A stretch of DNA of 44,809 bases from Mariniblastus sp. (GTDB taxonomy: Bacteria; Planctomycetota; Planctomycetia; Pirellulales; Pirellulaceae). Below are positions 1,133-24,147 of this stretch, one piece after another. Within the stretch, counting starts at the first letter, position 1, and the number at the start of each line of letters is the position of its first letter. The translations under genes and the position numbers were made by a program. The notes under the pieces are model-generated. The model worked only from the letters and a program-made list of their open reading frames with translations, searched no databases and was not told the DNA's origin. Location: the NCBI GenBank assembly GCA_014237975.1, contig JABACA010000023.1:1-44809 (forward strand). The letters are read 5' to 3'.

Positions 1133-4100
1133 GTGGAAGAGTTACTAACCTTAATTGCTTTGTCGATTGTTGTGTTTGCCATCATCGGTTTCGTCGTGAC
1201 GATCATGGCAATCGTCAAGCATTCGTCGGCTGACAGACAGGGGACGCAGAAGAAACGCAGTCTTCAGGATGACTCGGTGGCAGCTGCCTACTTGATCAAC
1301 GAATTTTGGCGCAAACAAGAGATCGATGATGAGCAGTTTGACACCCTGAGAAAACTGCTTGAAGAAAACATGACTGGGCAGGCTCAACTGCCGAAGTCCA
1401 TTAAACCGGATCCGGTAGATTTGACGACGAAACCGGCCGTGGCACCACCCATTTCAGCAGCCGAAGAGACCGTTTCGAATCCGGTTAAAGAGAGCGAGGA
1501 GCGTATCGAGCCGGTGCTGGAAGCGACAACCGAATCTTCCATTGCCAAACAACCAGTCACATCCCCAAGTGCAGTCTCTGCGGATGTTGCCGCAGAAGTT
1601 GTTGCCGCAGAAGTTGTTGCGGAGGAAGTGGTGGATGCGGCAGCAACGGTCCTTCCGGCCAAGGCACCTGCCCCTTGGGATATTCCGGATCCACCCGAAC
1701 CGAAGCCGCGACGAACGTTTTCGGATGTACTGGCCAACTTCATGCTGGACAAGAACATTCGGTGGGGTGAGTTGGCCAGTGGTATTTTGATCGTCGGTAG
1801 CGCGATTGGCCTGGTCATCAGTTTGCGCACGCAATTAACGGAACGGATTCCCTATTTTCCCGCGCTACTGTTCTTGTTGATTACGGCCGCGATCCATGCC
1901 GCTGGCAGTTACACGCTGCGAAAATGGAAATTGAGAAATACGAGTCGTGGCGTATTGGTCATCGGTCTGTTCATGGTGCCGCTCAACTTCCTCGCAGCCT
2001 GCCTGTTGAGTGAAGAACGGCCGTTGTCGGACCCGGTCTACTGGATTGCCATGCTGCTGGGTTTCACAGCCTTTACTGGAATGACATGGTGGTCGAGCAA
2101 GCTGCTGTTCCGGCGTGGGTACGGGCCGTTTGTGGCGAGCATCCTTGGGCTGTCGGCGATGATCCTGGTGTTTAACCGGTTGACTTTGGGTGAGTCAACT
2201 TGGTTGATTGCTGGCCTGACAGTTCCGATTGGTTTGCTGTTTCTATGGGGCAGCGGATTGGTGATGCCGGTTGTCTGGAATCATCGATACTGGACCGAAC
2301 GCAGTCTGAATCGGATGTACCTCTATACGGGTATCCCCTTGTTTACCTCGGCATCAGCCGTCTCGATGCTGTTGGTTCGGTCGGGCGATCGAACATTGAC
2401 GATGATGGCATTGACCCCACTGGTCATGTTCCTGTCGTTGATGTTGAGTTGGTTTGGTCTGCTGATTGTCAGGAACCGTAACGCATCGGTCGTATTGAAT
2501 CATCAGTTGGTACACCGTTCGCTCGTGATCTTGGGAATGAGTTTCGCCAGCATTGCCTGGTTGGCCTCGGTCATCCTGCCGTCAGTATTCTTGTTGAACA
2601 GCCTGTTGTTGGCCGTGATGAGTTGGAGCATGGCTCGCCAATACCAGATCAATTGGCTGCGACCGATCGCAGGTTTTGGTTTGGCGACCGCCTTTCTGGT
2701 AGCCATCAACGCGTTGCTGGGTGAACTCGATTGGAACAAGTGGGAATCGCTGAACACGCTCGGCAACGCTTTGTTCAGCAGTCAGAGTGGTCTGACACTG
2801 ATGGGACTTGGCGGTGCACTGGCCGGGTGTTTTTCTCTGCAGGCCATGCGTGGGCCTGGGAAAGGGTTCGACGATTTCAACCGGACCGATATCGTCTGCG
2901 CTGCGGGAATCGGTATCAGCGGATGTGTCCTGTCGCTGGTTGCCGGGCTAATCCACCGCGACAGTGTTTTTGATACGATGACCGCCAGTCTACTGTTGGC
3001 ACTGGCCGCGGTCGTTACGTTGGTATTGGCGGCGATCGAGCACCGACAACGATGGTGGGTGCACACGGCAGCCCTGGTCAGTTTGAGCGGCTTGGCATTT
3101 TCGACATTTTGGAATCCAACCATCATCGGCTGGATCATCTCGTTCGAGTATGGTTACACTCTCAACTGGATGGTGATGGTTGTAGTCTTTAGTTTGATGT
3201 TTTCGTTGGCCGCCATGTTTGCCTCCGCGCGGCAAGGCGCCGAGGCAGTGACAGGAAAACTGGCTTGCTATGCCGGTTTTACCGCGAGCATTGCCTCATT
3301 CATGGGGCTCTACCTATCCGCTCGCTGGCCGCAACTGGGAGTCGGCTTGGCGGTAGCCGGTTGTCTCTTCTGGCTGGGCGTTGCCTGGTCGATGCGCGGC
3401 AAGCGGAGCCAATTCAGTGAGCCACCGTTTGTTGCTTCAACGGCCGTGCTGATCATCGCGATACTGATGGGGTTTTCGGAATCACTCGGTGTTCCGAAAT
3501 GGACCGAAGCGGCCCATTGGCTGGTCCAATGTTCAGTCCTTGGGGTCTGGGCCATCGTCTGGATGCTGGCATCCCGTTTTGCGAATCAAGGAAACGGCCG
3601 TTTCGGCTGGCTGTTGGGCAACCACCCGTATCGAGGTGAGCAAATCGTCCTGGCTCTCGTTGTGGGCACGTATTCGTTGTTGTTGCTGGTTCCATTAGTC
3701 GAACTGACAAGTCGCCAGCTCTACAAAACGTTGGATCTGGGCCTGTACGATGGCCAGGGTGAACTCGGTTTTCTGGTCACTGCTTACTTTTCGGTCTTTG
3801 CAGCTTCCTTGATCGCGTTTTGGGGCAAACCATCGACTAACACCGGCAGTTACCTGGTTCTTGGCTGGGTACTCGGTTGGAGCTTGTTTGCATTTGGTTT
3901 TGCCGAATCGGTATCGGTCGGTTCGGCATTGCGTTGGTTGTTGTCATTGAGCTGCCTGGTCACGGCCGGCGGAGTTGTCTATCTCATGCACCGCACAAAA
4001 AACCTCACCGATCAATCCTGGATCAGCCGTTGTTTGGAAACGGACCTGGTCAAGAGAGCCAATACCCCGGGAGAACCCAATCACGAAGTTTCCCTGGACA

Positions 4101-7100
4101 CCGAAGCCGCGACGTTGCCGACTGGCCCGCGCCGAAAATTATTGAATCAGCTGATCAACCAGTTTCTTTGGATCGCCGGCGGTACGGTGCTGTTGATTTC
4201 ATCACTGACGGTTGCCGGGGTGATGCTCAATGGTGCTGACAGCCTGGGGGGGCCCCAACCGGGCAGTTGGTTCTCCAGTTTGCCATCAGAGGTTTCCTAC
4301 GGTGTGCCGGCCGTGCTGTTGACCTCCTCGTTACTGGTTCTTTCGATTGCGCTGGGGCGTAAATGGTTGACCGTTTTCGGTTCAGCCACGTATCAATACG
4401 TGGTTGTCTTTATGGTGATCCTGTTGTTCCTGTCACCTCATCCAAAGCTGGCAACCAGCTGGTTTCTCAGTATTCTGCAATCCGTTTCCATTGGCATGTC
4501 GCTCTATGGATTCGTCTGGTTCGCGTTTCGCAACAGGATTGCAGGTGGTGGTGCGAGCGCGCCGGGTCGAAAGTGGATCAGCCAATTGGAATTACACACT
4601 CTGGTCAATGCACTGCTTGTCACGAGCTTGGCAGTCCTGATTGGCGGCCAAGTCTGCATCTGGCCGGATCAATCGGGGGGCTGGGCCAATGCGGCTGGCA
4701 GCCCATTGGGTTTCATCGCTCTGCTCATGGTCAGTGGACTCGGCTACGTCGTGGGCCGCGATCACAAGTTTCTCTCTGGGACGGATTTGCTGAACGGCTG
4801 GTTGATCGCCTGGGTCGGATTGACTTTCTCGGCCATGTTGGCGGCGCTGCTCGACACGAACACCCAAACCGTCTTTATAGGAATCCGCACCCTGGTCGTT
4901 GGCGGTGTCGTCACGTCATTGGTCCTCTTCGGGAAGATGGCATTCGAGCTTCGCAAATCGTCAGGGACGCCCCATCCAATCAACGTGTGGCCGCTTTTGG
5001 TTGTGACCTCGCTGTTGGCATTGTTTGCTTTTCGCGCCAGCCTGTATGATCCGATGCATGTTTGGGCTTACGTCTCGGCAGTTGGACTGGCCGTTATCCT
5101 GGTGACATTGCTCGGGATTCTTCGCGACCTGTTTGCTATGCAATATGTGGGCGCCGCGTATGGTATCACGGCTGTTTCCATGCTGATTCTAGACGTCTTC
5201 GACTCGGTGCTGACGTCGATCAATGTCGGCATGATCATGCTCCTGTTGATCAGTTGCGCCTGGTCCGTCGGGTATATCCTGAAGCCAGAACGTCGACAGC
5301 GCCCCGGGATTGAATTCCTGCTGGTCAACGCGATGTTGGTACTCTCATGCACCTGGGTCGCGCTCATGTCGGCATGGCAGCTGCTGTTGGATTGGGAGCC
5401 TCGGATTAGCGATGATTCCGGGTTGTTCCGGCCTGCGGGTATCGGGTTCCTTGCCGCGTCACTCGGTTGCCTGGTGCTGACGACCTGGAATCGAGGTGTT
5501 CGGCTATTCCTGGTGACACGTTATGTCTGGATCCTGGGTCTGGTTGGGGCGCTGATATCTTTTTTGTTAGAGCTGAACGGCGCTACATTGGCAAACCGGA
5601 TTCTGTGGATTTCCTTCGGCGCTGGTGCTCTTGTTTTGGGCTGGGGTGTTGTTTGGGCGACTCGCAAGAGATGGCTCTCGGTAGCAGAGAGCTGGCGGAT
5701 TCCCAGGTTGGCAGAAATACAAAATGAACTCCGGTATAAGTTGCCCGTTTACGTCCTGCTGACAGGCTGCCTGGTCTTTTTTGTCAGCTGGCTCGCGATT
5801 TGGAATGTGGCCGCTCGTCCATCGCGTTACCTGGCCTCGCTGACACCGTTCTTGGTGGTGATTGGTGTTGGGGCATTGTCGGATTCACACAAGCGTCGCT
5901 GGATGCAAGTGGCATCGCTTTTGATGGTGACTGCCAGTCTTATTTTGGTAGCGCTGGCCGATCTGCCGGTGACCGCCACGTCCGCGCAATGGTTGGTGCG
6001 AGTGATGCTGGTGCTGGCAGCGATGATGTTTATCTACGGTGGCTTGGTATCCCGCTGGTCTCAAGCGAATGATTCCTGGCTTCGATCCCTGCGAGAAATG
6101 GCATCCGTGACGTGTGCTTTGGCGCTGCCATGTTTGGTGTTGCTGGTGATCCGGGAGTTCTCGGAGTTCGACAAGACCCAAGGGGCCGGGATCCCGCTGG
6201 TCGATTCCGTCGGCGTCGCCATTGCCGTCCTCGGCATGATCGTGGGACTGATCACGATTGCAGTGAGGCCCAAGCTGGATCCTTTTGCCATGTCGGTGCA
6301 GGGGCGGACGATTTATGTGTATCTAGCCCAGGTGGTTGTCGTCCTTCTCTGTTTGCACCTGTATTTCACGATACCCTGGTTGTTCCAGCTTGGACTCGCG
6401 CAATTCTGGCCGTACCTGTTGATCGCCATCGCGTTTGGCGGGATTGGTGTTTCACGGTTATTGCAGCAACGTCAACTGGCGGTACTTGCCCAACCGCTGT
6501 TCAACACGGCAGCCGCACTGCCTGTTTTGGTGTCATTAGGCGTTTTTATGGCAAGCGATACCCAGGCAGACACCTCGGTGGTTTTACTGGGTGCCGGTTT
6601 GCTCTATTTGATGCTGAGCTATACCCAACGGTCGGTCATTAGCGGTGGTGTCGCGATCGTGCTGGGCAACCTGGCCCTTTGGGTTTTCTACAACAAGTTC
6701 CCCAGTTTCTCCTTTTTCGAGCATCCCCAGCTATGGCTGATTCCGCCGGCCATTTCGGTTTTAGTCGCCGCCCAACTCCTGCGTCGCCAGATGTCCTCCA
6801 GTCAATTGGCGACGTTGCGATATGTTTGCCTGGCGACGATCTATATCAGTTCGACAAGTGATATTTTCATCGGCGGTATTGGAAAAGAGATATTACCACC
6901 TATCATCCTGGCCTTGCTTTCAGTGATAGGGATTCTGTCTGGGATCGGTTTTCGAATACGTGCGTTCCTGTACCTGGGGACACTGTTCCTTCTGTTGTCG
7001 ATGGTGGCGATGGTTTATCACGCCCAACAGGCCTTGCACCACACCTGGCCGTGGTGGGCGTTTGGTATCTGCATGGGAATTGCAATCCTGTCCATGTTTG

Positions 7101-7168
7101 GCCTGTTCGAAAAACGCCGAAACAAAATGAAACAGATTGCCGCGCAGCTTCAACAGTGGGATCTGTAG
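1133..7168 (+). CDS. Giant polytopic membrane protein of unknown function
   Basis: A 2011-residue protein beginning at a GTG. An N-terminal membrane helix (residues about 4-28) is followed by a short helical segment, AAYLINEFWRKQEIDDEQFD, that resembles a SHOCT-like motif. Next comes a low-complexity Ala/Glu/Val/Pro linker (about 80-195) with short internal repeats (AAEVVAAEVVAEEVV). From about residue 205 (NIRWGELASGILIVGSAIGL) to the end it is almost continuous hydrophobic helices separated by short basic loops, probably several dozen membrane spans. The repeated pattern suggests internal duplication. The start of the membrane part resembles DUF2339/DUF2157-like planctomycete proteins, but I do not recognise a characterised family and see no catalytic motif. 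It stands alone, convergent with the next gene, with only 17 bp between stop codons. Confidence 0.85.
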   Translation: MEELLTLIALSIVVFAIIGFVVTIMAIVKHSSADRQGTQKKRSLQDDSVAAAYLINEFWRKQEIDDEQFDTLRKLLEENMTGQAQLPKSIKPDPVDLTTKPAVAPPISAAEETVSNPVKESEERIEPVLEATTESSIAKQPVTSPSAVSADVAAEVVAAEVVAEEVVDAAATVLPAKAPAPWDIPDPPEPKPRRTFSDVLANFMLDKNIRWGELASGILIVGSAIGLVISLRTQLTERIPYFPALLFLLITAAIHAAGSYTLRKWKLRNTSRGVLVIGLFMVPLNFLAACLLSEERPLSDPVYWIAMLLGFTAFTGMTWWSSKLLFRRGYGPFVASILGLSAMILVFNRLTLGESTWLIAGLTVPIGLLFLWGSGLVMPVVWNHRYWTERSLNRMYLYTGIPLFTSASAVSMLLVRSGDRTLTMMALTPLVMFLSLMLSWFGLLIVRNRNASVVLNHQLVHRSLVILGMSFASIAWLASVILPSVFLLNSLLLAVMSWSMARQYQINWLRPIAGFGLATAFLVAINALLGELDWNKWESLNTLGNALFSSQSGLTLMGLGGALAGCFSLQAMRGPGKGFDDFNRTDIVCAAGIGISGCVLSLVAGLIHRDSVFDTMTASLLLALAAVVTLVLAAIEHRQRWWVHTAALVSLSGLAFSTFWNPTIIGWIISFEYGYTLNWMVMVVVFSLMFSLAAMFASARQGAEAVTGKLACYAGFTASIASFMGLYLSARWPQLGVGLAVAGCLFWLGVAWSMRGKRSQFSEPPFVASTAVLIIAILMGFSESLGVPKWTEAAHWLVQCSVLGVWAIVWMLASRFANQGNGRFGWLLGNHPYRGEQIVLALVVGTYSLLLLVPLVELTSRQLYKTLDLGLYDGQGELGFLVTAYFSVFAASLIAFWGKPSTNTGSYLVLGWVLGWSLFAFGFAESVSVGSALRWLLSLSCLVTAGGVVYLMHRTKNLTDQSWISRCLETDLVKRANTPGEPNHEVSLDTEAATLPTGPRRKLLNQLINQFLWIAGGTVLLISSLTVAGVMLNGADSLGGPQPGSWFSSLPSEVSYGVPAVLLTSSLLVLSIALGRKWLTVFGSATYQYVVVFMVILLFLSPHPKLATSWFLSILQSVSIGMSLYGFVWFAFRNRIAGGGASAPGRKWISQLELHTLVNALLVTSLAVLIGGQVCIWPDQSGGWANAAGSPLGFIALLMVSGLGYVVGRDHKFLSGTDLLNGWLIAWVGLTFSAMLAALLDTNTQTVFIGIRTLVVGGVVTSLVLFGKMAFELRKSSGTPHPINVWPLLVVTSLLALFAFRASLYDPMHVWAYVSAVGLAVILVTLLGILRDLFAMQYVGAAYGITAVSMLILDVFDSVLTSINVGMIMLLLISCAWSVGYILKPERRQRPGIEFLLVNAMLVLSCTWVALMSAWQLLLDWEPRISDDSGLFRPAGIGFLAASLGCLVLTTWNRGVRLFLVTRYVWILGLVGALISFLLELNGATLANRILWISFGAGALVLGWGVVWATRKRWLSVAESWRIPRLAEIQNELRYKLPVYVLLTGCLVFFVSWLAIWNVAARPSRYLASLTPFLVVIGVGALSDSHKRRWMQVASLLMVTASLILVALADLPVTATSAQWLVRVMLVLAAMMFIYGGLVSRWSQANDSWLRSLREMASVTCALALPCLVLLVIREFSEFDKTQGAGIPLVDSVGVAIAVLGMIVGLITIAVRPKLDPFAMSVQGRTIYVYLAQVVVVLLCLHLYFTIPWLFQLGLAQFWPYLLIAIAFGGIGVSRLLQQRQLAVLAQPLFNTAAALPVLVSLGVFMASDTQADTSVVLLGAGLLYLMLSYTQRSVISGGVAIVLGNLALWVFYNKFPSFSFFEHPQLWLIPPAISVLVAAQLLRRQMSSSQLATLRYVCLATIYISSTSDIFIGGIGKEILPPIILALLSVIGILSGIGFRIRAFLYLGTLFLLLSMVAMVYHAQQALHHTWPWWAFGICMGIAILSMFGLFEKRRNKMKQIAAQLQQWDL

Positions 7169-8143: not shown

Positions 8144-8755
8144 ATGTCTCGCCACCCAACCGGAGTTTCTGATATCAAAACCATTTTCATCCTGCGGCAG
8201 GTCGTTTTCCTGGGGTTGGTTGTTGTTTGGCTAACGGGTTGCGATTTCTATCAGGATGAATACGGGAATCGAAAGCTGTTGCCAGCACCTCCACCCACGA
8301 TCGTGCCATACAAATTGTCAGGGTTTCCTTACGGAATTAAACGGGGAGATGAATTGCAGATTGTAGCGGGCGAAACTTCGACATTCTGTCGACTGATGGG
8401 TGTTCGAGCGCCGAATCAGGACGATGCTTGTTTCGACGAATCGACAGAGTTCCTTAACAGCCTGGTAGCAGGTCAGGTTGTCCATGGAACCGTCGTTGGG
8501 CATGACGCGCAAATGCGAGCCAGTTTTCGCGGGTACGTGGGTGACTTGGACTTGAACCTCGAGATGATTCTGCATGGCTATGCTCGATATGATGAAACGG
8601 AATTTCCTGGTAGCGAAGCATTCCGCGAGGCAGAATCCCAAGCACGTCGTGCCGGTCGTGGCATGTGGCAAAGCACCCCCGGTCGATCATCTCGGTTAAA
8701 TTCGAACGACGGGCGGCCCGCTACTTCACAAAAAATGGAACAGGATCAGTCTTGA
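8144..8755 (+). CDS. Staphylococcal nuclease-like (SNase) lipoprotein
   Basis: A 203-residue protein. A hydrophobic leader ends in LTGC at about residues 28-31, a lipobox, so the mature protein is probably a lipid-anchored exoprotein. Residues about 60-170 follow the SNase/thermonuclease layout: FCRLMGVRAPNQDD matches the R-L-x-G-x-x-A-P motif, the LVAGQVVHG segment matches the usual 'L..G..V' strand, and LNLEMILHGYARYDE followed by FREAESQARRAGRGMW matches the closing 'N..L...G.A' and 'AR....GLW' segments. The catalytic Arg/Glu/Arg set is not clearly complete, since the second motif lacks the usual D-R-Y-G-R. It may therefore be a degenerate, binding-only member. Its last 35 bp overlap the 3' end of the opposite-strand CRTAC1-type gene. 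Confidence 0.75.
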   Translation: MSRHPTGVSDIKTIFILRQVVFLGLVVVWLTGCDFYQDEYGNRKLLPAPPPTIVPYKLSGFPYGIKRGDELQIVAGETSTFCRLMGVRAPNQDDACFDESTEFLNSLVAGQVVHGTVVGHDAQMRASFRGYVGDLDLNLEMILHGYARYDETEFPGSEAFREAESQARRAGRGMWQSTPGRSSRLNSNDGRPATSQKMEQDQS

Positions 8756-10976
8756 CCTGCTGGTAGGATTTTTCGTTTCGGTAGAGCCCCATTCGTTTGG
8801 CAGCCGCTTTGAATTGTGGGGACTGTCGTGGAATCATTTGCATCGCGACCGATTGTTGCTGCATTGCCTGTTGGAATTGACCATTGGCCGCCAGTGCGGC
8901 TGCCAATGTTTGTTGGCCTGCCGCATCGGTTGATCTGGCCGACACGGCCTGTTGCGAATAGCGAAGGGCCGTTTTCGGGTCTCTTAATTGGCTGTCGGGT
9001 GCCGTTGCCATGATCCACGCCAGCCGCAACATCGAGTCCACATCGCGAGGGTTGTTAGACAATGCTAACGAATATCTCATGCGGGACGACTTGAAGTCAC
9101 CATTGGCCAACAAGCTATCGGCCAACAACCGGGAGATTCGCGGTGCGTTTGGTTTTGCATCGTCTGCGACACGCAATGCACTGAGGGCCTGTTCGTAATG
9201 ACCAAGCTCCATCATGGCCGATCCATACTCGGCGACCACATCCCCGTTTTCAGGGGCAGATTTCATTGCCAATTCCAACTGTTCGACTCCCCGGTCAATC
9301 ATCTTTTGGCTTAGAAAGAGTCGACCCAGCAGTACACGAACCTGCCAGGCATCCGGTTTAACCAGTAAGGCTGCTTCGAGCGGTTTGATCGCCTTGGCCG
9401 GTTGCCGCAGTTGAATTAACACGTTTCCCAGACCTGCCAGCGCGTCGAAATTCTCTGGTGCCAGTTCGCTTGTTTTCTGGTATTCCCGCTTGGCAATTTC
9501 CAGCGCCCGGTTTTGACCTCCAGCCTGGGATGTACTTGCCAATTTGACCATTAAATTGGCCAACACCAGATGGGCCGGGCCAAAGGAATCGTCAAGCCTG
9601 ATCGCTTCGTGCAATTGCGATTCAGCATTCTGGAAGTCGTTGGATGCTAGCGAAGTGAGTGCGGCGTTATAATATTGCCGCGCTTTTTGACCACCCGCCA
9701 GTTGGTCATATCGTTTTGCATCTATGGGATAACCATTCTCTGTAAAGACGTCGGCAAATTTCAGGTTGTCGATCGTTGGGGGAACCGCAATCCATTGACC
9801 CGCCAGCTGCGTCAGCCGTTTTCGAATTTCTGAATCCGGTTGATCGAGTCGCTTCAGATCCTGTTTCAACTGGTCAAGGTTGACCACACCAAGGTAAAAT
9901 GCCCGCATGTCGCCCTGTTGGTCAACCAGAATACTGGTTGGCATCGGGAACGGTTGCTGCAACCCAAATAATTCGCCTCGCAGCAACGTCATCTTGGCCA
10001 GCCATGATCGGTCGACGCTGCCCCAGGCAAACGGAAGTTGCAGCTTGGCAGCAGCCTTGGCGGCGTCAGTTGGTGTGGTCGATTGTCCATCAGCGCCGTC
10101 GGTACTGAGTGCTATGATCTCCAACCCATTCTGTTTCAGCTCGTCGTACTGTTCCGAAAACTCCTGTAACTCGGCAAGGCAGGGGTTGCACCAGCTGGCC
10201 CAAAGATTAACCAGGGTAAAAGGAGCATTGAATTCCAATGGTTTGGCCGTTTGATTGTCGACAACCATTTGGGTGAGGGGTAGTTTCATACGGGGGTAAC
10301 AGACAGCCGAGACGGTGCCGGGAATACCCGCATTGGGCAGCGGCCCGACGGCGAGCTTGGTCGGTGACGGGTTGGGTTCGACGACTTCTAGTCCGGGGTT
10401 GTTTTCGATCAAGCGGTAATGCCGGTTGGGCGCGATATCGCTAAATTTTTGAACCTGGCCCGACGGCCAGGCAACCTGCACCGCAAGCTTGCCTTGGTTG
10501 TTTTGTCCCAACCCAAATGTCATTTGTTTACTGGACTGACTCAGAAAGCCGGATCCCGCGCGAAGCGTCTTGACGATCGAAGTTCCGTCGGGCAGCGTGA
10601 CCGTCACGCGTGCGCCGATACCGTCGCGATTGGACTGACTGCCGACGAGTCGGAAAGAAACGTACCCGTGGTTGCCCGAATATTCATTTTGCATGAAACG
10701 AAGTTGAGGGGCCGTTCGGTTGGTGAAAATCAAATCGACATCACCATCCTGATCCCAGTCGGTTGTGGCTAGTCCTCGAGCATCGTCGATGAAATCAAGG
10801 CCCGACACACTGGACACGTTTGCGAATCGGGCATCGCCCATATTCAGGAAGGCACAATTACGTTCTTTGCCACTAAACGAGTTGCCTTGCCGAATTTGGG
10901 TAATGAACTGGCTGTAAGATTTGCTCATTACCTCGACGGCCGTTTCGTTGTCCTGTTCATCGGTCGTTCGCGGCAA
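8721..10976 (-). CDS. CRTAC1-type protein, 3' part: ASPIC/UnbV + TlpA-like thioredoxin + TPR
   Basis: This open frame runs directly on from the upstream segment, in the same frame, after one UGA at 11000-10998. Order of domains: the end of the FG-GAP region (ARGLATTDWDQDGDVDLIFTNR, residues about 48-69), an ASPIC/UnbV domain (about 95-190, GIGARVTVTLPDG ... GLGQNNQGKLAVQVAWPSG), and a TlpA-like thioredoxin domain (about 240-380) with an intact WCNPC redox motif. A long array of tetratricopeptide repeats (about 430-720) follows. The TTG at 10976 is only the first possible start; the first ATG is at 10928 and neither has a clear ribosome binding site. The stretch between the UGA and 10976 encodes TVFWRQV, which continues the family pattern. 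This argues that the segment is normally translated as part of the upstream gene, giving a 1409-codon product. The 3' end overlaps the SNase-like gene by 35 bp. Confidence 0.8.
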   Translation of the reverse strand: MPRTTDEQDNETAVEVMSKSYSQFITQIRQGNSFSGKERNCAFLNMGDARFANVSSVSGLDFIDDARGLATTDWDQDGDVDLIFTNRTAPQLRFMQNEYSGNHGYVSFRLVGSQSNRDGIGARVTVTLPDGTSIVKTLRAGSGFLSQSSKQMTFGLGQNNQGKLAVQVAWPSGQVQKFSDIAPNRHYRLIENNPGLEVVEPNPSPTKLAVGPLPNAGIPGTVSAVCYPRMKLPLTQMVVDNQTAKPLEFNAPFTLVNLWASWCNPCLAELQEFSEQYDELKQNGLEIIALSTDGADGQSTTPTDAAKAAAKLQLPFAWGSVDRSWLAKMTLLRGELFGLQQPFPMPTSILVDQQGDMRAFYLGVVNLDQLKQDLKRLDQPDSEIRKRLTQLAGQWIAVPPTIDNLKFADVFTENGYPIDAKRYDQLAGGQKARQYYNAALTSLASNDFQNAESQLHEAIRLDDSFGPAHLVLANLMVKLASTSQAGGQNRALEIAKREYQKTSELAPENFDALAGLGNVLIQLRQPAKAIKPLEAALLVKPDAWQVRVLLGRLFLSQKMIDRGVEQLELAMKSAPENGDVVAEYGSAMMELGHYEQALSALRVADDAKPNAPRISRLLADSLLANGDFKSSRMRYSLALSNNPRDVDSMLRLAWIMATAPDSQLRDPKTALRYSQQAVSARSTDAAGQQTLAAALAANGQFQQAMQQQSVAMQMIPRQSPQFKAAAKRMGLYRNEKSYQQVKTDPVPFFVK

Positions 10977-11000
10977 AACTTGCCGCCAGAAAACCGTTCA
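10970..11000 (-). promoter_or_regulatory. In-frame UGA followed by a SECIS-like hairpin
   Basis: On the minus strand the codons read KDL-UGA-TVFWRQV with no frame change. After the UGA come 11 nt, then GCGGCAA (10986-10980), the loop GUU (10979-10977) and the exact complement UUGCCGC (10976-10970). Published descriptions of bacterial SECIS elements ask for a stem-loop just after the UGA, an apical loop of three or more nt about 16-37 nt downstream, and a G among its first two bases. Here the loop starts after 18 nt and its first base is G. This fits, but a 7-bp hairpin can arise by chance. No selenocysteine machinery gene is visible in the window, so a nonsense mutation or base-call error is equally open. 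Confidence 0.45.
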
Positions 11001-12950
11001 CAAGTCCTTGGATGCCTGGCGAGTCAAGTAACCGTTGGCAACCACCACATCGTCCCAAGAGTCGTTATCGAGATCGACAAATTTTGAACCCCAGGCCCAC
11101 CGTCCCATCCAGACATTGGATTCGATACTGGCATCGGTAAACGCCTCCGGTGCTCCCAGGAACAGAGAGTTGCCCCGGGCCATGTACTGCACCCGAGACT
11201 GGAGTTCGGGTTGCCGGCTCATGTAACCGCTTTGAAAACTGACGCGATTGCCGGCTGACGAGAACATGTTCGATACGTACAAGTCCGGTCGACCATCATG
11301 ATTGACATCGGACCAGTCGACCGACATGCCAAATGACTGATCTTCGACGTCTTGCTGCTCGGCCACGTTTTGAAATTGTCCATCCTGGTTTTGGTAAAGT
11401 GAATTGCGACCAAAATCATTGGCGACATAAAGGTCCAGATCTCCATCGAGATCAAAATCTTCCCATGCTGCGGCCATAGAGAATCGACTATTGTTCTGAT
11501 CGAGCCCGACCGAATCAGTGATATCCCGCAAATTGCCTTGGCCGTCGTTTTCGTACAGTACATTTCGTCCGCCGTTATTGGCATCGTGAAACGGGTAGGC
11601 AAAAGGAAACGGACCGGCTCCAAACAAGGCGCTGTAACCGCAGGCGTAGATATCGACATCGCCGTCGTTATCGAAATCCGCGGCAGACAGAGAATAGGCA
11701 CTCCGCGCTTCAAATAATTTATCCCGCAGTTTAAGTTGGGTTTTGCCTTCGTTTTCAAATACCAACAGGAAAGACGCCGCCGCTACCAGTAAATCCTGAT
11801 CGCCATCATTATCCAAATCAACGAACAGGGCACTGCGGGTTTGGTCCAGAATATCCAGGTTTGCTTCGCTCGATTGATCTTCGATCCGGCCATCTTCCTG
11901 CTGCACTAACAGTCGGTTGGGCAGGCCCGCGGGCTGGCAAATATAGATGTCATCCCGTTGGTCTCCATTGATGTCGCCGACTGCCAATCCGAAATGGCCA
12001 GCATAGTCTCCTAGCATCAGCCGCGACGTCCAGTATTCCGTCCCGTGGGAGAACTGTTCAACCAGGTCCGGGTTGTCGTTGATGAGGTCTCTGGTTCGGT
12101 CCGTAAACGTGACTCCCGAGGTTCCGTCAAAACGGGCCGTTTCGTAGTCGTTGACAGCGATCGCCCGGATCAACGGTTTCGCGCCCTCCGCTCCCTGGTT
12201 CCACTGAACGTCTAGCGTGCAATTGACTTCCGTACTGGTGTCGTTATCGAACTTTGCAAACACCGAGACAATCACTATGGTTTGCGCCGAGTTGCCTTCG
12301 AGTTGCACCTGAGTGACCTTGAATTTAGCTCGTTGCTCGATCGGTTTGCGTTCGGCGGGATCTCCCATTGGGGAAAGTAACTGTCTCCAAGTGGTTTCAA
12401 GCGAGGACGCATATGCCGTCAACGCGGGCTGGGACGAATCATCAGAAGCATCCGGGGGCGGGTTCATTTTCTGGACGCTGAACCCGGCATCCCTCAGCGT
12501 TACCAGTTGCCCTGAATCAAATTCAGCCGATCGGTAGTCGGCTGCCGAAATCGACTTGAGCAGGCTCGGATCCTGCCGGCTCGATTCGATCCATTCAGTA
12601 ATTTTTTTCAATTGGGCGGAAGCAGCCTGCTCGAAGGACTCAACATTCGCCAGCTGATCAAAATTGGTGTCCGATGTTGCTGCGGGCAAGTTTGCGTCAG
12701 GTTGACCGTCGACGGTGGGTCCCGGTTCCGGTTCTGATTTGTTTCCTGAACAACCCGACCAGACAAGGCAGGCTAGCAGGAAGCCAGCTCCAATCCACCA
12801 CGCAGATCCCAAGTGGCGAATCCGATTGGGTGGTTGGTACAGGCGATTAGGTTCTGGTTGGATTGAATCTGGCTGCACAAAAGCGACTTGTTGGCTTGGT
12901 GTTGGGGTGTCGAGACGGCTTCGGATTGCTGTTGTTACGCAAGTTTTCAC
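10998..12950 (-). CDS. CRTAC1-type FG-GAP/VCBS repeat lipoprotein, 5' part ending at in-frame UGA
   Basis: A 650-codon frame from a GTG. A basic N-terminal extension precedes a hydrophobic leader ending in LVWSGC (about residues 62-67), which looks like a lipobox, so export and lipid anchoring are likely. The central part (about 90-280) is a poorly conserved polar region. Residues about 285-640 are FG-GAP/VCBS repeats with calcium-loop-like motifs (VGDINGDQRDDIYIC, FVDLDNDGDQDLLVA, ADFDNDGDVDIYACG, WEDFDLDGDLDLYVAND, WSDVNHDGRPDLYVSN). These form an integrin-alpha-like beta-propeller. The last blade, FVDLDNDSWDDVVVANGYLT, ends just before the UGA; in complete relatives the chain continues with a W-R containing segment and an ASPIC/UnbV domain, exactly what the next frame supplies. 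Family call is firm; whether this is half a gene or a readthrough gene is open. Confidence 0.85.
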   Translation of the reverse strand: MKTCVTTAIRSRLDTPTPSQQVAFVQPDSIQPEPNRLYQPPNRIRHLGSAWWIGAGFLLACLVWSGCSGNKSEPEPGPTVDGQPDANLPAATSDTNFDQLANVESFEQAASAQLKKITEWIESSRQDPSLLKSISAADYRSAEFDSGQLVTLRDAGFSVQKMNPPPDASDDSSQPALTAYASSLETTWRQLLSPMGDPAERKPIEQRAKFKVTQVQLEGNSAQTIVIVSVFAKFDNDTSTEVNCTLDVQWNQGAEGAKPLIRAIAVNDYETARFDGTSGVTFTDRTRDLINDNPDLVEQFSHGTEYWTSRLMLGDYAGHFGLAVGDINGDQRDDIYICQPAGLPNRLLVQQEDGRIEDQSSEANLDILDQTRSALFVDLDNDGDQDLLVAAASFLLVFENEGKTQLKLRDKLFEARSAYSLSAADFDNDGDVDIYACGYSALFGAGPFPFAYPFHDANNGGRNVLYENDGQGNLRDITDSVGLDQNNSRFSMAAAWEDFDLDGDLDLYVANDFGRNSLYQNQDGQFQNVAEQQDVEDQSFGMSVDWSDVNHDGRPDLYVSNMFSSAGNRVSFQSGYMSRQPELQSRVQYMARGNSLFLGAPEAFTDASIESNVWMGRWAWGSKFVDLDNDSWDDVVVANGYLTRQASKDL

Positions 12951-21038: not shown

Positions 21039-22634
21039 ATGCTTTCTTTGACAAGGTACGCCTGTAAACAATGGCTCGTCGTGTGCCTGTTTTGCCTGGG
21101 AGTCGGTTGTGGGCCAACGATAGAATCCCATACGCAAAACAAGAAATACAGCACTGCGATCGAAAACCCGGGCAACACACGTTTGGGCAGGACGTCGGCT
21201 GCGATGGCAGAAGACCATCCCGGGGAATCGGGCTTTCTGTTACTGGACCGGGGGCGAGACGCACTCTCATGGCGTTTGATATTGGCGGATGCGGCTGAGC
21301 AAACAATTGATGCACAGTATTTCCTGTGGAAAAATGACCAAGCGGGAAAAGTCTTCATGCAGCGCCTTTTGGCGGCCGCCGAACGTGGCGTTCGCGTTCG
21401 AGTGGTATTGGATGATTCGATGACCGAACCGGACCCTCAATACCTGGCTGAATTTGGACTGCATCCAAACATCGAATTGAGATTGTACAAACCGTTTGGT
21501 CCCAAGCGGAAATCGACGGCGCTGCGCTGGATCGATTACGTCAGAGATCTGAAGATATTGAACCAGAGAATGCACAACAAGTTATTTGTTGTGGATGGCA
21601 GTGTGGCGATTGTTGGTGGTCGCAATATTGGCAATGAGTATTTTGAATATCCGGGACCGTTTGTGTTTCGCTGTCGTGACCTCCTGGCCGTGGGTCCCAT
21701 CGTTGAACACACCAATTCGGCGTTTGACCTTTACTGGAATAGTGATTGGACCGTGCCGATTGACCAAGTCGTGGATCCGGTGCCAAAGGAGCGACAGAAT
21801 GAGGCGTTTTGGAAACAGCTAAATAAATTTGCCCGGGACTCGGCTAATTATCCAGCCGGTTTTTTTGACAATCCTCGTGAATATACCAGTGAAATGGAGA
21901 GGCTCGAGACGGAGTTGGTTTGGGGTGAAGCCAAGTTGCTGGTGGACGCGGTCCCGACCAATAATGGCCAGCCGCAGAGTCATGCAGCATTGCATCAAAC
22001 GAGTGTCGTACTGGGCCAGATGCTGGAACAAGCCCAACAGGAAGTGTACGTGGAAACGGCTTATCTCATCCTGCTGGAAGAAGGGTTTGAGGCGCTGAAA
22101 CGAGCCAGGGCAAGGGGGGTGAAAATAATCTTGGCAACCAATTCACTGGCCTCCAATAATCATGTGACATCCTTTGTGGGATATCGAAAACAACGCAGGA
22201 GATTGCTGGCAACCGGGTCTGAACTGTTTGAAATGCGACCCGATGCGGCGTCCGAACGGGCCTTGTTCACACCGCAGCAGCTGAGCGAATATAAAACCGT
22301 TTTCGGATTGCATTCCAAGACGGCCGTTTTTGACAAGAAGACAGTCTTCGTGGGTTCTTTCAACCTCGATCCAAGATCGGTCAACTTGAACAGTGAAATG
22401 GGATTTTTGGTCGATAGTCCCGAATTGGCCCGTGCCGTGTTGGCGAGTATTCAACAGGATATTTCACCGGGAAACAGCTGGCAGGTGGTTCTCGGTCCCC
22501 AGGGCAAGGTCGCCTGGATTACCTCTCGCAACGGTGAAGTCATAACGGAACCCAGGGCGGAGCCGTTGGCCACCCGGAAGCGGCGAGCTGCGGCCGACCT
22601 GTTGATGGGCGTTCCGGACGACTCACAACTCTGA
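21039..22634 (+). CDS. Phospholipase D superfamily lipoprotein (cardiolipin synthase-like)
   Basis: A 531-residue protein with a hydrophobic leader ending in VGCG (near residue 24), likely a lipobox, so probably membrane-anchored outside the cytoplasm. Two HKD motifs give a pseudo-dimeric PLD active site: HNKLFVVDG (about 179) followed by GGRNIGNEYF, and HSKTAVFDK (about 425) followed by GSFNLDPRS. This pattern matches the ClsC/YmdC-like branch of PLD proteins, which move phosphatidyl groups between phospholipids. Phosphodiesterase activity is also possible. It is convergent with a second PLD gene 79 bp away, so two related enzymes of different architecture sit tail to tail. Confidence 0.88.
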   Translation: MLSLTRYACKQWLVVCLFCLGVGCGPTIESHTQNKKYSTAIENPGNTRLGRTSAAMAEDHPGESGFLLLDRGRDALSWRLILADAAEQTIDAQYFLWKNDQAGKVFMQRLLAAAERGVRVRVVLDDSMTEPDPQYLAEFGLHPNIELRLYKPFGPKRKSTALRWIDYVRDLKILNQRMHNKLFVVDGSVAIVGGRNIGNEYFEYPGPFVFRCRDLLAVGPIVEHTNSAFDLYWNSDWTVPIDQVVDPVPKERQNEAFWKQLNKFARDSANYPAGFFDNPREYTSEMERLETELVWGEAKLLVDAVPTNNGQPQSHAALHQTSVVLGQMLEQAQQEVYVETAYLILLEEGFEALKRARARGVKIILATNSLASNNHVTSFVGYRKQRRRLLATGSELFEMRPDAASERALFTPQQLSEYKTVFGLHSKTAVFDKKTVFVGSFNLDPRSVNLNSEMGFLVDSPELARAVLASIQQDISPGNSWQVVLGPQGKVAWITSRNGEVITEPRAEPLATRKRRAAADLLMGVPDDSQL

Positions 22635-22713: not shown

Positions 22714-24147
22714 TCAAAGCAGGGGCCCGAGGATCGCCATTGAGTTGTGCCACAATCGTGCCCCGACAGACCAATTGTCAACGGCTTCGAGGGTTATGGT
22801 TTTCGACTGCTCGAGATATTCTCGCTGCCGTTGAAAGATCGTTTGTGTCAACTCGGGATTGTAAAATAAGATATTGTTTTCGTAGTTTAATTCAAAGCTG
22901 CGTCGATCCATGTTGGCCGATCCAATCAAGGTAATATCACCATCGAGGGTCAGCGTTTTGGCGTGCAGCAGCCCGGGAATGTATTCAAAGATCTTAACAC
23001 CCGCTTGCAATAAATCGCGGTAATAACTTTGGCTCGCCGCCGCGACGATTCGCGAATCATTTCGGGCGGGAAAAATGATTTTTGTATCAACGCCACGATA
23101 AGCCGCTGCGCACAAGGCTAATTGCAGTGATTCATCAGGCACATAGTACGGCGTGGTAATGGTCAATTCTTTGCGGGCAGCATGCATCAATGATTCAAAC
23201 AATTCGGGCATGGCCGAAAAACGGATAGTTGGGCCGGTTCCAATGACTTGGGCCGGGAATCCCGATCCTTGCAACCGTCTCGTTTGTTGCAAGTCGCAAT
23301 CAATGTTCTGGTGGGTATAGGTCATCCAGTCGCGCGCAAACAGGTGATCGTTTTGACTCGCGATCGGCCCTTCAAAACGAACCATCGCATCGACCCAGGG
23401 AGCGTACTTGGCCTTGATTAGAAATTCCGCATCTGCACAGTTTTGACTTCCACAATAAGTGATGTCCTGATCGACGACCAGGATTTTGCGATGGTTTCTT
23501 AAGTCGATTCGTCCTTTGAGCAGGCGTAAGAACGGGTTTCCGATTGCCAGCGCCTCGGCCGTGTGGACCCCGGCGTCTTGCATGGCGGTCCACAGCTTGG
23601 AACGGACCAGGTCGCGGGATCCGAGGCAGTCGACCATGGCGCGACATTGGACACCACGCAGGGCTGCCCGCTTCAGGGCGTCGGCCATTTTCTGGCCGTT
23701 GTTATCCGGCAGCCAAATGTAAAACAGCAGATGAACACGTTTTTTTGCAGCATCAATATCGGCAACCATGGCGTCGATCGTTGCGTTGGAATCGGCCATC
23801 AGTTTCCCTGAGTTACCGCCAATCGGGCTGAACCCGCTGATGGATTTACCCGTTTGAAACAGATGCCTGTATTGGCGTGGGATGTCGGGCTGCAGGACTT
23901 TCTCGTCGCCGGTCAACTCCTCCATGAGGGGAGTGATCTTTTGCATGACCTTTTGGCGGCGACGAATGTGTGCACGTCCAATATTGACTTCGCCAAACAG
24001 GATATAGGCGAGGCACCCGAGGATGGGGAGAAGTGCAATCACGGCGACCCATGCAATGCGGGCCATCGGTTCTCGATGACGGCGAAGCATGACGCGCATT
24101 ACCAATGCAAATTCGATCGCGAATATGATCAAAGATGCCGTTAGCAT
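22714..24147 (-). CDS. Cardiolipin synthase (ClsA type)
   Basis: A 477-residue protein of usual ClsA length. Two N-terminal membrane helices (MLTASLIIFAIEFALVMRVM and IAWVAVIALLPILGCLAYIL) form the PLD nuclease N-terminal anchor domain, ending in FGE. The first HKD motif is HRKILVVDQD near residue 217, followed by GSQNCAD. The second is HAKTLTLDGD near 393, followed by GSANMDRRSFELNYEN, a typical Cls signature. It joins two phosphatidylglycerols to cardiolipin plus glycerol at the inner membrane. It is divergent from the LtaS-like gene, with a long gap between them. A gene symbol is withheld because Cls subtypes are hard to separate by eye. Confidence 0.92.
   Translation of the reverse strand: MLTASLIIFAIEFALVMRVMLRRHREPMARIAWVAVIALLPILGCLAYILFGEVNIGRAHIRRRQKVMQKITPLMEELTGDEKVLQPDIPRQYRHLFQTGKSISGFSPIGGNSGKLMADSNATIDAMVADIDAAKKRVHLLFYIWLPDNNGQKMADALKRAALRGVQCRAMVDCLGSRDLVRSKLWTAMQDAGVHTAEALAIGNPFLRLLKGRIDLRNHRKILVVDQDITYCGSQNCADAEFLIKAKYAPWVDAMVRFEGPIASQNDHLFARDWMTYTHQNIDCDLQQTRRLQGSGFPAQVIGTGPTIRFSAMPELFESLMHAARKELTITTPYYVPDESLQLALCAAAYRGVDTKIIFPARNDSRIVAAASQSYYRDLLQAGVKIFEYIPGLLHAKTLTLDGDITLIGSANMDRRSFELNYENNILFYNPELTQTIFQRQREYLEQSKTITLEAVDNWSVGARLWHNSMAILGPLL

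Follow-up and report, generated by a model that had tools for sequence, protein, structure and literature searches.

The window analysed here is positions 1 to 44,809 of contig JABACA010000023.1 from Mariniblastus sp. (assembly GCA_014237975.1), and the gene in question lies on its minus strand, where positions 8721–12950 form one frame of 1409 codons interrupted solely by the TGA at 10998–11000 (TCA on the plus strand). The two open reading frames (ORFs) 10998–12950 and 8721–10976 share the same phase, and reading the TGA through yields a protein of 1409 residues with U651 at this codon. A sequence-only reading of the window had proposed that these adjacent frames together encode one protein with FG-GAP, ASPIC/UnbV, TlpA and tetratricopeptide repeat (TPR) parts and a thioredoxin WCNPC motif, and the read-through product has both the corresponding Pfam domains and the motif (C921 and C924, counted on the read-through sequence). 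This UGA is almost certainly read as selenocysteine (Sec, U), which comparative evidence supports and which is the best-supported step of our interpretation. The features of the gene are:

8721–12950, minus strand: whole gene, FG-GAP/UnbV propeller plus TlpA-like thioredoxin plus TPR; 1409 codons via one UGA, first possible start GTG at 12950.
10998–11000, minus strand: in-frame UGA, proposed Sec U651, from stop-codon conservation, selA, selB and selC, and Cys in a sister subfamily.
10970–10986, minus strand: putative bacterial selenocysteine insertion sequence (bSECIS) hairpin, GCGGCAA-GUU-UUGCCGC, with a 7-bp stem and 18 nt from UGA to loop, from folding and stem covariation in the family.
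10974–11006, minus strand: motif D-L-U-T-V-F-W-R-Q-V-L (family form D-L-U-S-F-F-W-R-Q-V-V), with U at the N-terminus of a propeller-inserted helix in an AlphaFold model.
10623–12098, minus strand: FG-GAP/CRTAC1-type beta-propeller, the UGA lying in its final portion (Pfam PF13517 and PF01839; boundaries estimated).
10416–10622, minus strand: ASPIC/UnbV domain, residues 777–845 (Pfam PF07593, E 5.2e-19).
9900–10235, minus strand: fused TlpA/AhpC-TSA thioredoxin-like domain, residues 906–1017 (Pfam, 42.5 bits, cut-off 26).
10179–10190, minus strand: CNPC of the fused thioredoxin, proposed partner of Sec651, from sequence and from the co-occurrence of CxxC with Sec.
8859–9512, minus strand: TPR repeats, approximately residues 1147–1364 (Pfam TPR families; span taken from a sub-cut-off NCBIfam TPR match).

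The succession of an FG-GAP propeller and then an UnbV_ASPIC domain is that of the CRTAC1/ASPIC-UnbV proteins, and the fused domain has the thioredoxin-like fold with CxxC of TlpA/ResA proteins (AhpC-TSA at 42.5 bits together with CNPC). An AlphaFold model of residues 265–860 with a 59-row alignment has a mean pLDDT of 91.3, with 79 in the Sec block (381–390), and places U at model residue 387, in the N-terminal end of a helix spanning 386–397. The N-terminus of a helix is a usual place for a reactive selenol or thiol. The top Foldseek match in the PDB is murine CRTAC1 (9etn_A, E 9.3e-29, TM 0.67/0.73), which is also the top PDB profile match (E 6.8e-37). Because of an N-terminal hydrophobic stretch and the TlpA-like domain, we infer that the protein is exported and would be extracytoplasmic.

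Five places in this genome belong to the family and carry TGA at the same codon (C155, which is the window, C33, C56, C188 and C75); they share the motif D-L-UGA-[ST]-x-x-W-R-x-V, with C75 cut by a contig end. The nearest orthologues, L122 (83% identical) and L123 (82% identical), also keep the TGA. From the UGA to residue 860, dN is 0.167 versus a dS of 1.79 for L122 and 0.179 versus 2.78 for L123, with dS near saturation, and dN is far below dS on either side of the TGA. The locus therefore has an in-frame UGA with selected coding sequence beyond it, as expected of a bacterial selenoprotein, and the shared phase and purifying selection downstream bear out the earlier view that a single UGA separates the frames without a change of frame.

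The TGA is conserved well beyond this genome. The family was matched in 79 of 99 relatives, and among the matches listed all in-frame stops are TGA. At loci fetched by protein similarity, all 73 distinct stop-bearing motif sites have TGA, none TAA and none TAG; with pattern-fetched loci included the count is 97 of 97, but some of these were fetched by a TGA pattern and the stop-codon count is hence quoted for the 73. A codon-blind pattern applied to 392 planctomycete genomes, our sample of the phylum, gave 73 listed matches in 47 genomes (counted by eye), of which 66 have TGA, three CAG and one each GCG, GAC, CTC and GTT, with no TAA, TAG, TGC or TGT among them. UGA-containing homologues occur in other Sec-decoding organisms, and the named U-bearing loci come from Planctomycetota, Verrucomicrobiota, Acidobacteriota, Latescibacterota and Gemmatimonadetes (L102). 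The genome G031 holds 20 strict copies of the motif, 12 of them among its 16 scored protein matches, all 16 of which have exactly one TGA; the four further scored matches bring it to 24 candidate places, not each read individually. Whole-genome figures in the parts of the literature available to us are at least 39 selenoprotein genes (PMC5029168) and at least 46 (PMC12013277).

These patterns bear on two alternatives. A TGG- or TGC-to-TGA mutation or a sequencing error in one gene, leaving a pseudogene, would require only a single substitution, and the 5.0-Mb assembly consists of 404 contigs. However, TGA recurs at the same codon in five members of this genome and in both orthologues, stands exactly once in every scored G031 member and is found in the motif across several phyla and many independent assemblies, with dN far below dS past it, and we give this explanation practically no credence. 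Alternatively, the UGA might be a true stop, with the second half restarted as a separate protein from the ORF that has a TTG start just past it. Against this, the residues S-x-x-W-R-x-V right after the UGA are among the best conserved of the stretch (the search itself having demanded W and R), TAA and TAG are absent from the 73 stops, and the break would lie where a helix begins within a propeller modelled as one domain; it is extremely improbable that two proteins are made here.

Machinery for Sec is present in this genome, where the sequence-only reading had made its proposal depend on it: selA (576 bits), selB (271 bits versus a curated cut-off of 242, the gene being cut at a contig start) and tRNA-Sec (selC, 70.2 bits, called tRNA-SeC with anticodon tca by ARAGORN) were all found. 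Across the 392 planctomycete genomes, tRNA-Sec (called at E ≤ 1e-10) occurs in 228 and the TGA motif in 57, and the reversed-pattern control was seen to match in one genome. Both occur in 52 genomes, the motif alone in 5, tRNA-Sec alone in 176 and neither in 159, so that tRNA-Sec accompanies 52 of 57 motif genomes versus 176 of 335 others (odds ratio 9.4, one-sided Fisher p 4e-9). Four chance-like pattern matches (G372, G248, G391 and G169) are retained in this count; without them the figure is 49 of 53 (p 4e-9). Among the first 80 of the 99 relatives the motif occurs in 22, and tRNA-Sec (at least 62 bits) was found in 20 of these versus 30 of the other 58 (manual count). Fifty of the 80 named loci come from 49 genomes, among which tRNA-Sec was found in 33 of 38 with Sec-type loci (four of the 33 scoring only about 54 bits) and in 11 of 11 with non-Sec loci. 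The presence of non-Sec homologues in Sec-decoding genomes indicates that the residue has gone from the protein rather than the machinery from the cell.

The hairpin in the window starts 11 nt past the UGA and has a perfect 7-bp stem, a GUU loop and a folding energy of −9.6 kcal/mol; the 66-nt stretch containing it is more stable than dinucleotide shuffles (z −2.68, with 3 of 200 as good). According to the available part of PMC13188914, the bSECIS model allows a loop of 3–9 nt, a stem of 4–16 bp, G in the first two loop positions, a spacing of 16–37 nt and an energy of at most −7.5 kcal/mol. The fit to bSECIS spacing and loop G that had been noticed from the letters thus holds, at 18 nt and −9.6 kcal/mol, and the hairpin proved to be conserved in relatives, with compensatory changes. 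Using our own coding of the published rules rather than the bSECISearch program, the model accommodates 64 of 97 family sites (the window being L009 among them) versus a mean of 7.9 (5–14) in 20 rounds of synonymous shuffling. On 45 nt, it accommodates 71 of 109 Sec rows versus 3 of 17 non-Sec homologues, in an alignment that does not include the window. Common loops in the family are mostly GGUCG or GUU, 17–18 nt from the UGA.

At the sequence level, the stem pairs the codons of Trp4-Arg5-Gln6 with those of Val8-Ser9-Gln10. At least five of the six stem pairs form in 88 of 97 sites; when the stem is slid, this falls to 5 sites at −1 and at +1, 0 at −2 and +2, 25 at −3, 2 at +3, and 0 at −4 and +4. 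Pairs R5.3-S9.1 (87 of 97 versus 72.4 shuffled), Q6.2-V8.2 (90 versus 73.8) and Q6.1-V8.3 (92 versus 86.5) covary to a degree reached in none of 5000 shuffles, and R5.1-S9.3 (84 versus 80.4) was matched in 3 of 5000. W4.3-Q10.1 and R5.2-S9.2 are invariant on one side, so covariation has no variation to show, and a possible seventh pair, Q6.3-V8.1, is at chance level (29 of 97). Compensatory states include AGG with CCT, seen twice, and CGA (34 sites), which always faces T at position 1 of Ser9. At the residue level, too, covariation follows the requirements of the stem (Gln with Val or Leu at 63 sites, Arg with Ala or Thr at 16, Arg with Val at 1), and codon use in the stem is skewed, with GTG in 58 of 62 cases at Val8 versus 15 of 95 at Val7 and TCG in 67 of 73 at Ser9 versus 15 of 62 at Ser11. 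Minimum-energy folding of 48 nt shifted only modestly from synonymous shuffles (mean z −0.46; 26 of 97 below −1, 7 above +1); the position-specific covariation and bSECIS tests are the more informative ones. A branch with the motif D-G-U-[ST]-C (L234–L241) combines TGA with a hairpin of another kind, spaced 20 nt from the UGA (its stem is GGGCUGU or shorter, and CGUGUC or CGUGAC is the usual loop) and within the energy limit in 6 of 8 cases; this is a second SECIS form in the same superfamily.

Just after the UGA and outside the hairpin, a Ser codon is AGT or AGC in 82 of 88 cases versus a background of 81 of 245 across the 97 sites; this bias may reflect either the 3' context of a Sec-UGA or codon legacy. 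In the window the codon at this place is Thr ACG (10995–10997).

An alignment of homologues across the position has TGA in relatives and Cys (TGC) in a sister subfamily, the residues that had been expected under selenocysteine. Among 12 stop-free homologues from relatives, six (L224–L229, from G063, G068 and G085) have Cys TGC in a D[YH]-C-[ST]-x-x-W motif and six do not. Aligned Cys homologues such as accompany bacterial selenoproteins therefore exist, in the sister subfamily only, and none of these six sequences fits the SECIS model. We had considered that the position is never Cys, which we dropped on account of L224–L229; it is valid solely inside the DLU-WRQVV branch, where none of the non-Sec rows examined has Cys and the 17 rows have Q, S, A, D, G, M, R or L at the Sec position. 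The L row (L210) is chance-like and was left out of the tree together with one Sec row (on length), reducing 126 rows to 124, among which five changes between Sec and non-Sec are needed. In the D-G branch, the non-Sec member L230 (D-G-I-S-S) lacks both U and the Cys two residues on. Trp was never found at the aligned position in the homologue sets examined.

Decoding as Trp or another residue, or readthrough, without selenium machinery would be in keeping with the minority of motif-bearing genomes in which tRNA-Sec was not found. This explanation is nevertheless very unlikely, given that the motif is enriched with tRNA-Sec, that the bSECIS hairpin covaries, that the D-G-U branch has a different hairpin largely within the limit (6 of 8), and that the aligned sense codons encode Cys in the sister subfamily and Trp in none of the sets examined.

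In most members the UnbV domain is followed by a tail that contains a thioredoxin-like domain. For tails of at least 60 aa past UnbV, to which this comparison is confined, both Cys of CxxC are present in 54 of 56 Sec tails versus 0 of 14 non-Sec tails (p 6e-13), and Pfam AhpC-TSA in 49 of 56 versus 5 of 14. The 56 are drawn from 61 Sec tails, L042, L055, L087, L088 and L213 being excluded with their end not seen, and all 14 non-Sec tails were used. The non-Sec tails are alignable, with FWxxxxPxS in place of the LWAxWCxPC of the Sec tails, and six non-Sec homologues from the same genus (L140, L142, L143, L144, L146 and L148) have a related stretch without CxxC (by eye). Sec and CxxC are jointly absent at separate places in the tree: in Acidobacteriota, in the planctomycete Q/A clade, in L212 and in L147 (a long branch).

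Sec proteins without a thioredoxin domain mostly have a Cys two residues past Sec (Cys+2; 12 of 16). With the Sec proteins whose tails are under 60 aa (L069 and two in L114) now counted, 126 of 130 distinct Sec sites could be classified for partner, four not being judgeable: 105 have a fused CxxC only, 12, all without thioredoxin, Cys+2 only, none both and 9 neither (exclusion p 1.5e-11). We strongly infer from these sequence patterns that Sec would be in a cis redox partnership with the fused CxxC or with Cys+2. Relatives with neither Cys nor UGA, which the sequence-only reading had treated as incompatible with Sec, do exist (the 17 rows, one of them chance-like, and more); we do not take them as evidence against Sec, because members without Sec whose tail is readable also lack the thioredoxin CxxC, and they look like losses of redox function.

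A pairing of Sec with the Cys of a downstream SxSGxERNC stretch was rejected as not general, since 54 of the 109 Sec rows have this Cys and none of the 17 non-Sec rows does. The S-x-S-G-x-E motif itself is widespread (108 of the 109 Sec rows have the second S and the G, and all 109 have E; 3 of 17 non-Sec rows have the second S) and may be part of the active site. In the window it reads SFSGKERNC, approximately +40 to +48 after U651 (alignment columns +84 to +92).

Several observations weigh against a Sec-decoded, cis-partnered enzyme. tRNA-Sec was not found in 5 of the 57 motif-bearing genomes of the phylum sample (one of them, G372, chance-like), at 62 bits or more in 2 of the 22 motif-bearing relatives, or in 5 of the 38 genomes with Sec-type loci; among the matches listed, 6 of 42 relatives with a TGA-bearing match (G022, G027, G032, G041, G063 and G087) likewise have none at 62 bits or more. 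Many genomes without a tRNA-Sec match are incomplete assemblies, which might account for the missing matches. With regard to the hairpin, 33 of 97 sites miss the strict energy limit, including the paralogues L010 (−6.2), L011 (−4.5) and L012 (−7.4) of this genome, L013 (−8.1) being within it; at the −3 slide, 25 of 97 sites retain at least five of six pairs, and covariation is slight or absent for three of the seven pairs tested. As for the partner, 9 of 126 Sec proteins have neither CxxC nor Cys+2, the 56-versus-14 comparison covers long tails solely, and the co-occurrence p values are inflated, related sequences having been counted as independent while the tree needs five label changes.

Another reading is a true selenoprotein whose Sec acts chiefly as a selenium-dependent translation switch, or as a structural or metal ligand, and not in redox work with the fused thioredoxin. 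The nine Sec proteins without an evident partner and the replacement of Sec by Q, S, A, D, G, M or R rather than Cys in the DLU-WRQVV branch would fit such a role. However, CxxC has disappeared along with Sec in separate lineages while the tail is still alignable, and Cys+2 stands in 12 of 16 proteins where the fusion is missing; we consider this role unlikely.

We therefore think it very probable that the gene encodes an exported selenoprotein in which SelB, tRNA-Sec and a stem-loop decode the UGA and a Sec on a propeller helix does redox work served in cis by CxxC or Cys+2. In this mechanism, SelB and tRNA-Sec would decode the UGA at 10998–11000 as Sec, guided by the stem-loop 11 nt downstream, and Sec would sit, as modelled, at the N-terminal end of a short helical insert in the FG-GAP/UnbV propeller of the CRTAC1 fold. 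As co-occurrence and co-loss suggest, Sec would be the redox residue; the CxxC of the fused TlpA-like thioredoxin, or the Cys two residues on in the subfamily that has no thioredoxin, would reduce or resolve it. Candidate reactions, at a guess, are peroxide chemistry, thiol/disulfide chemistry or another reduction, and we would also guess that the propeller probably binds the substrate.

The family is apparently undescribed within the databases and literature searched. NCBIfam (June 2026) gave 17 matches at E ≤ 0.01, none over its cut-off. The available part of PMC13188914 (2026), an inventory of 119 prokaryotic selenoprotein families or subfamilies, has no row for FG-GAP, UnbV or CRTAC1, and its text contains none of the terms FG-GAP, VCBS and Planctomyc-; FG-GAP and Planctomyc- are likewise absent from the available parts of PMC12013277 and PMC5029168. 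Nothing linking selenocysteine with UnbV appeared in the literature searched, as far as its text was accessible. The closest paper, PMC4807772, concerns selenoprotein candidates of two planctomycetes; UnbV, CRTAC and ASPIC have no occurrences in its main text as available, which does not include the supplementary candidate table.

The family may have been overlooked because annotation cuts genes at UGA and because searches for Cys/Sec pairs that start from its closer non-Sec homologues, which carry no Cys, would be blind to it. It is a large family, apparently of exported redox proteins, spread over several bacterial groups whose members are mostly uncultured, and its Sec nearly always has a sulphur-based redox partner within one and the same chain. 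We lean towards the view that it is a new and widespread class of extracytoplasmic selenoenzyme, combining a propeller Sec with a cis-fused thioredoxin, that has about 24 candidate genes in one planctomycete and was missed by both UGA-cut annotation and Cys/Sec-pair searches. If true, about 24 genes in one genome would be a large single-family selenoprotein expansion, and a large family on an integrin-like beta-propeller scaffold would be added to those in the 2026 inventory (PMC13188914), where it does not figure in the available part. This points to an under-count of selenium use in Planctomycetota, Verrucomicrobiota and Acidobacteriota, because annotating UGA as a stop would break every such gene into two. 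The link of Sec to a cis CxxC or Cys offers a biochemical handle on propeller proteins, and the Cys subfamily and the members without both Sec and CxxC are built-in natural experiments.

Elsewhere in the window, the plus strand carries a 2011-aa ORF at 1133–7168 with no Pfam match at E ≤ 1e-5. Two convergent PLD-like genes of the cardiolipin-synthase type lie at 21039–22634 (plus strand) and 22714–24147 (minus strand), with a fatty-acid desaturase and a patatin/cNMP protein near them.

Among known systems, the CRTAC1/ASPIC-UnbV FG-GAP proteins (PF07593, PF13517; murine CRTAC1, PDB 9ETN) have the same propeller fold; the bacterial branch differs by a putative Sec where a helix begins, by its fused thioredoxin and, in many cases, by TPRs. 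Thioredoxin/TlpA selenoproteins (the UGC-containing TlpA disulfide reductase and the ResA-like WAxxUGC family NF041054, matched here weakly at 19.4 bits versus a cut-off of 300) have in common with it the UGA/bSECIS decoding, a TlpA/ResA-like domain and thiol-selenol redox chemistry. In those proteins, however, Sec lies within the thioredoxin motif, judging by the motif names in the available Table 1 of PMC13188914, whereas here the thioredoxin retains CxxC and the proposed Sec is in the propeller. With the bSECIS decoding of E. coli formate dehydrogenase the family shares the UGA, an in-frame stem-loop with a loop G, SelB and tRNA-Sec, but its loop and stem are family-specific (mostly GGUCG or GUU at 17–18 nt, and CGUGUC or CGUGAC at 20 nt in the D-G-U branch).

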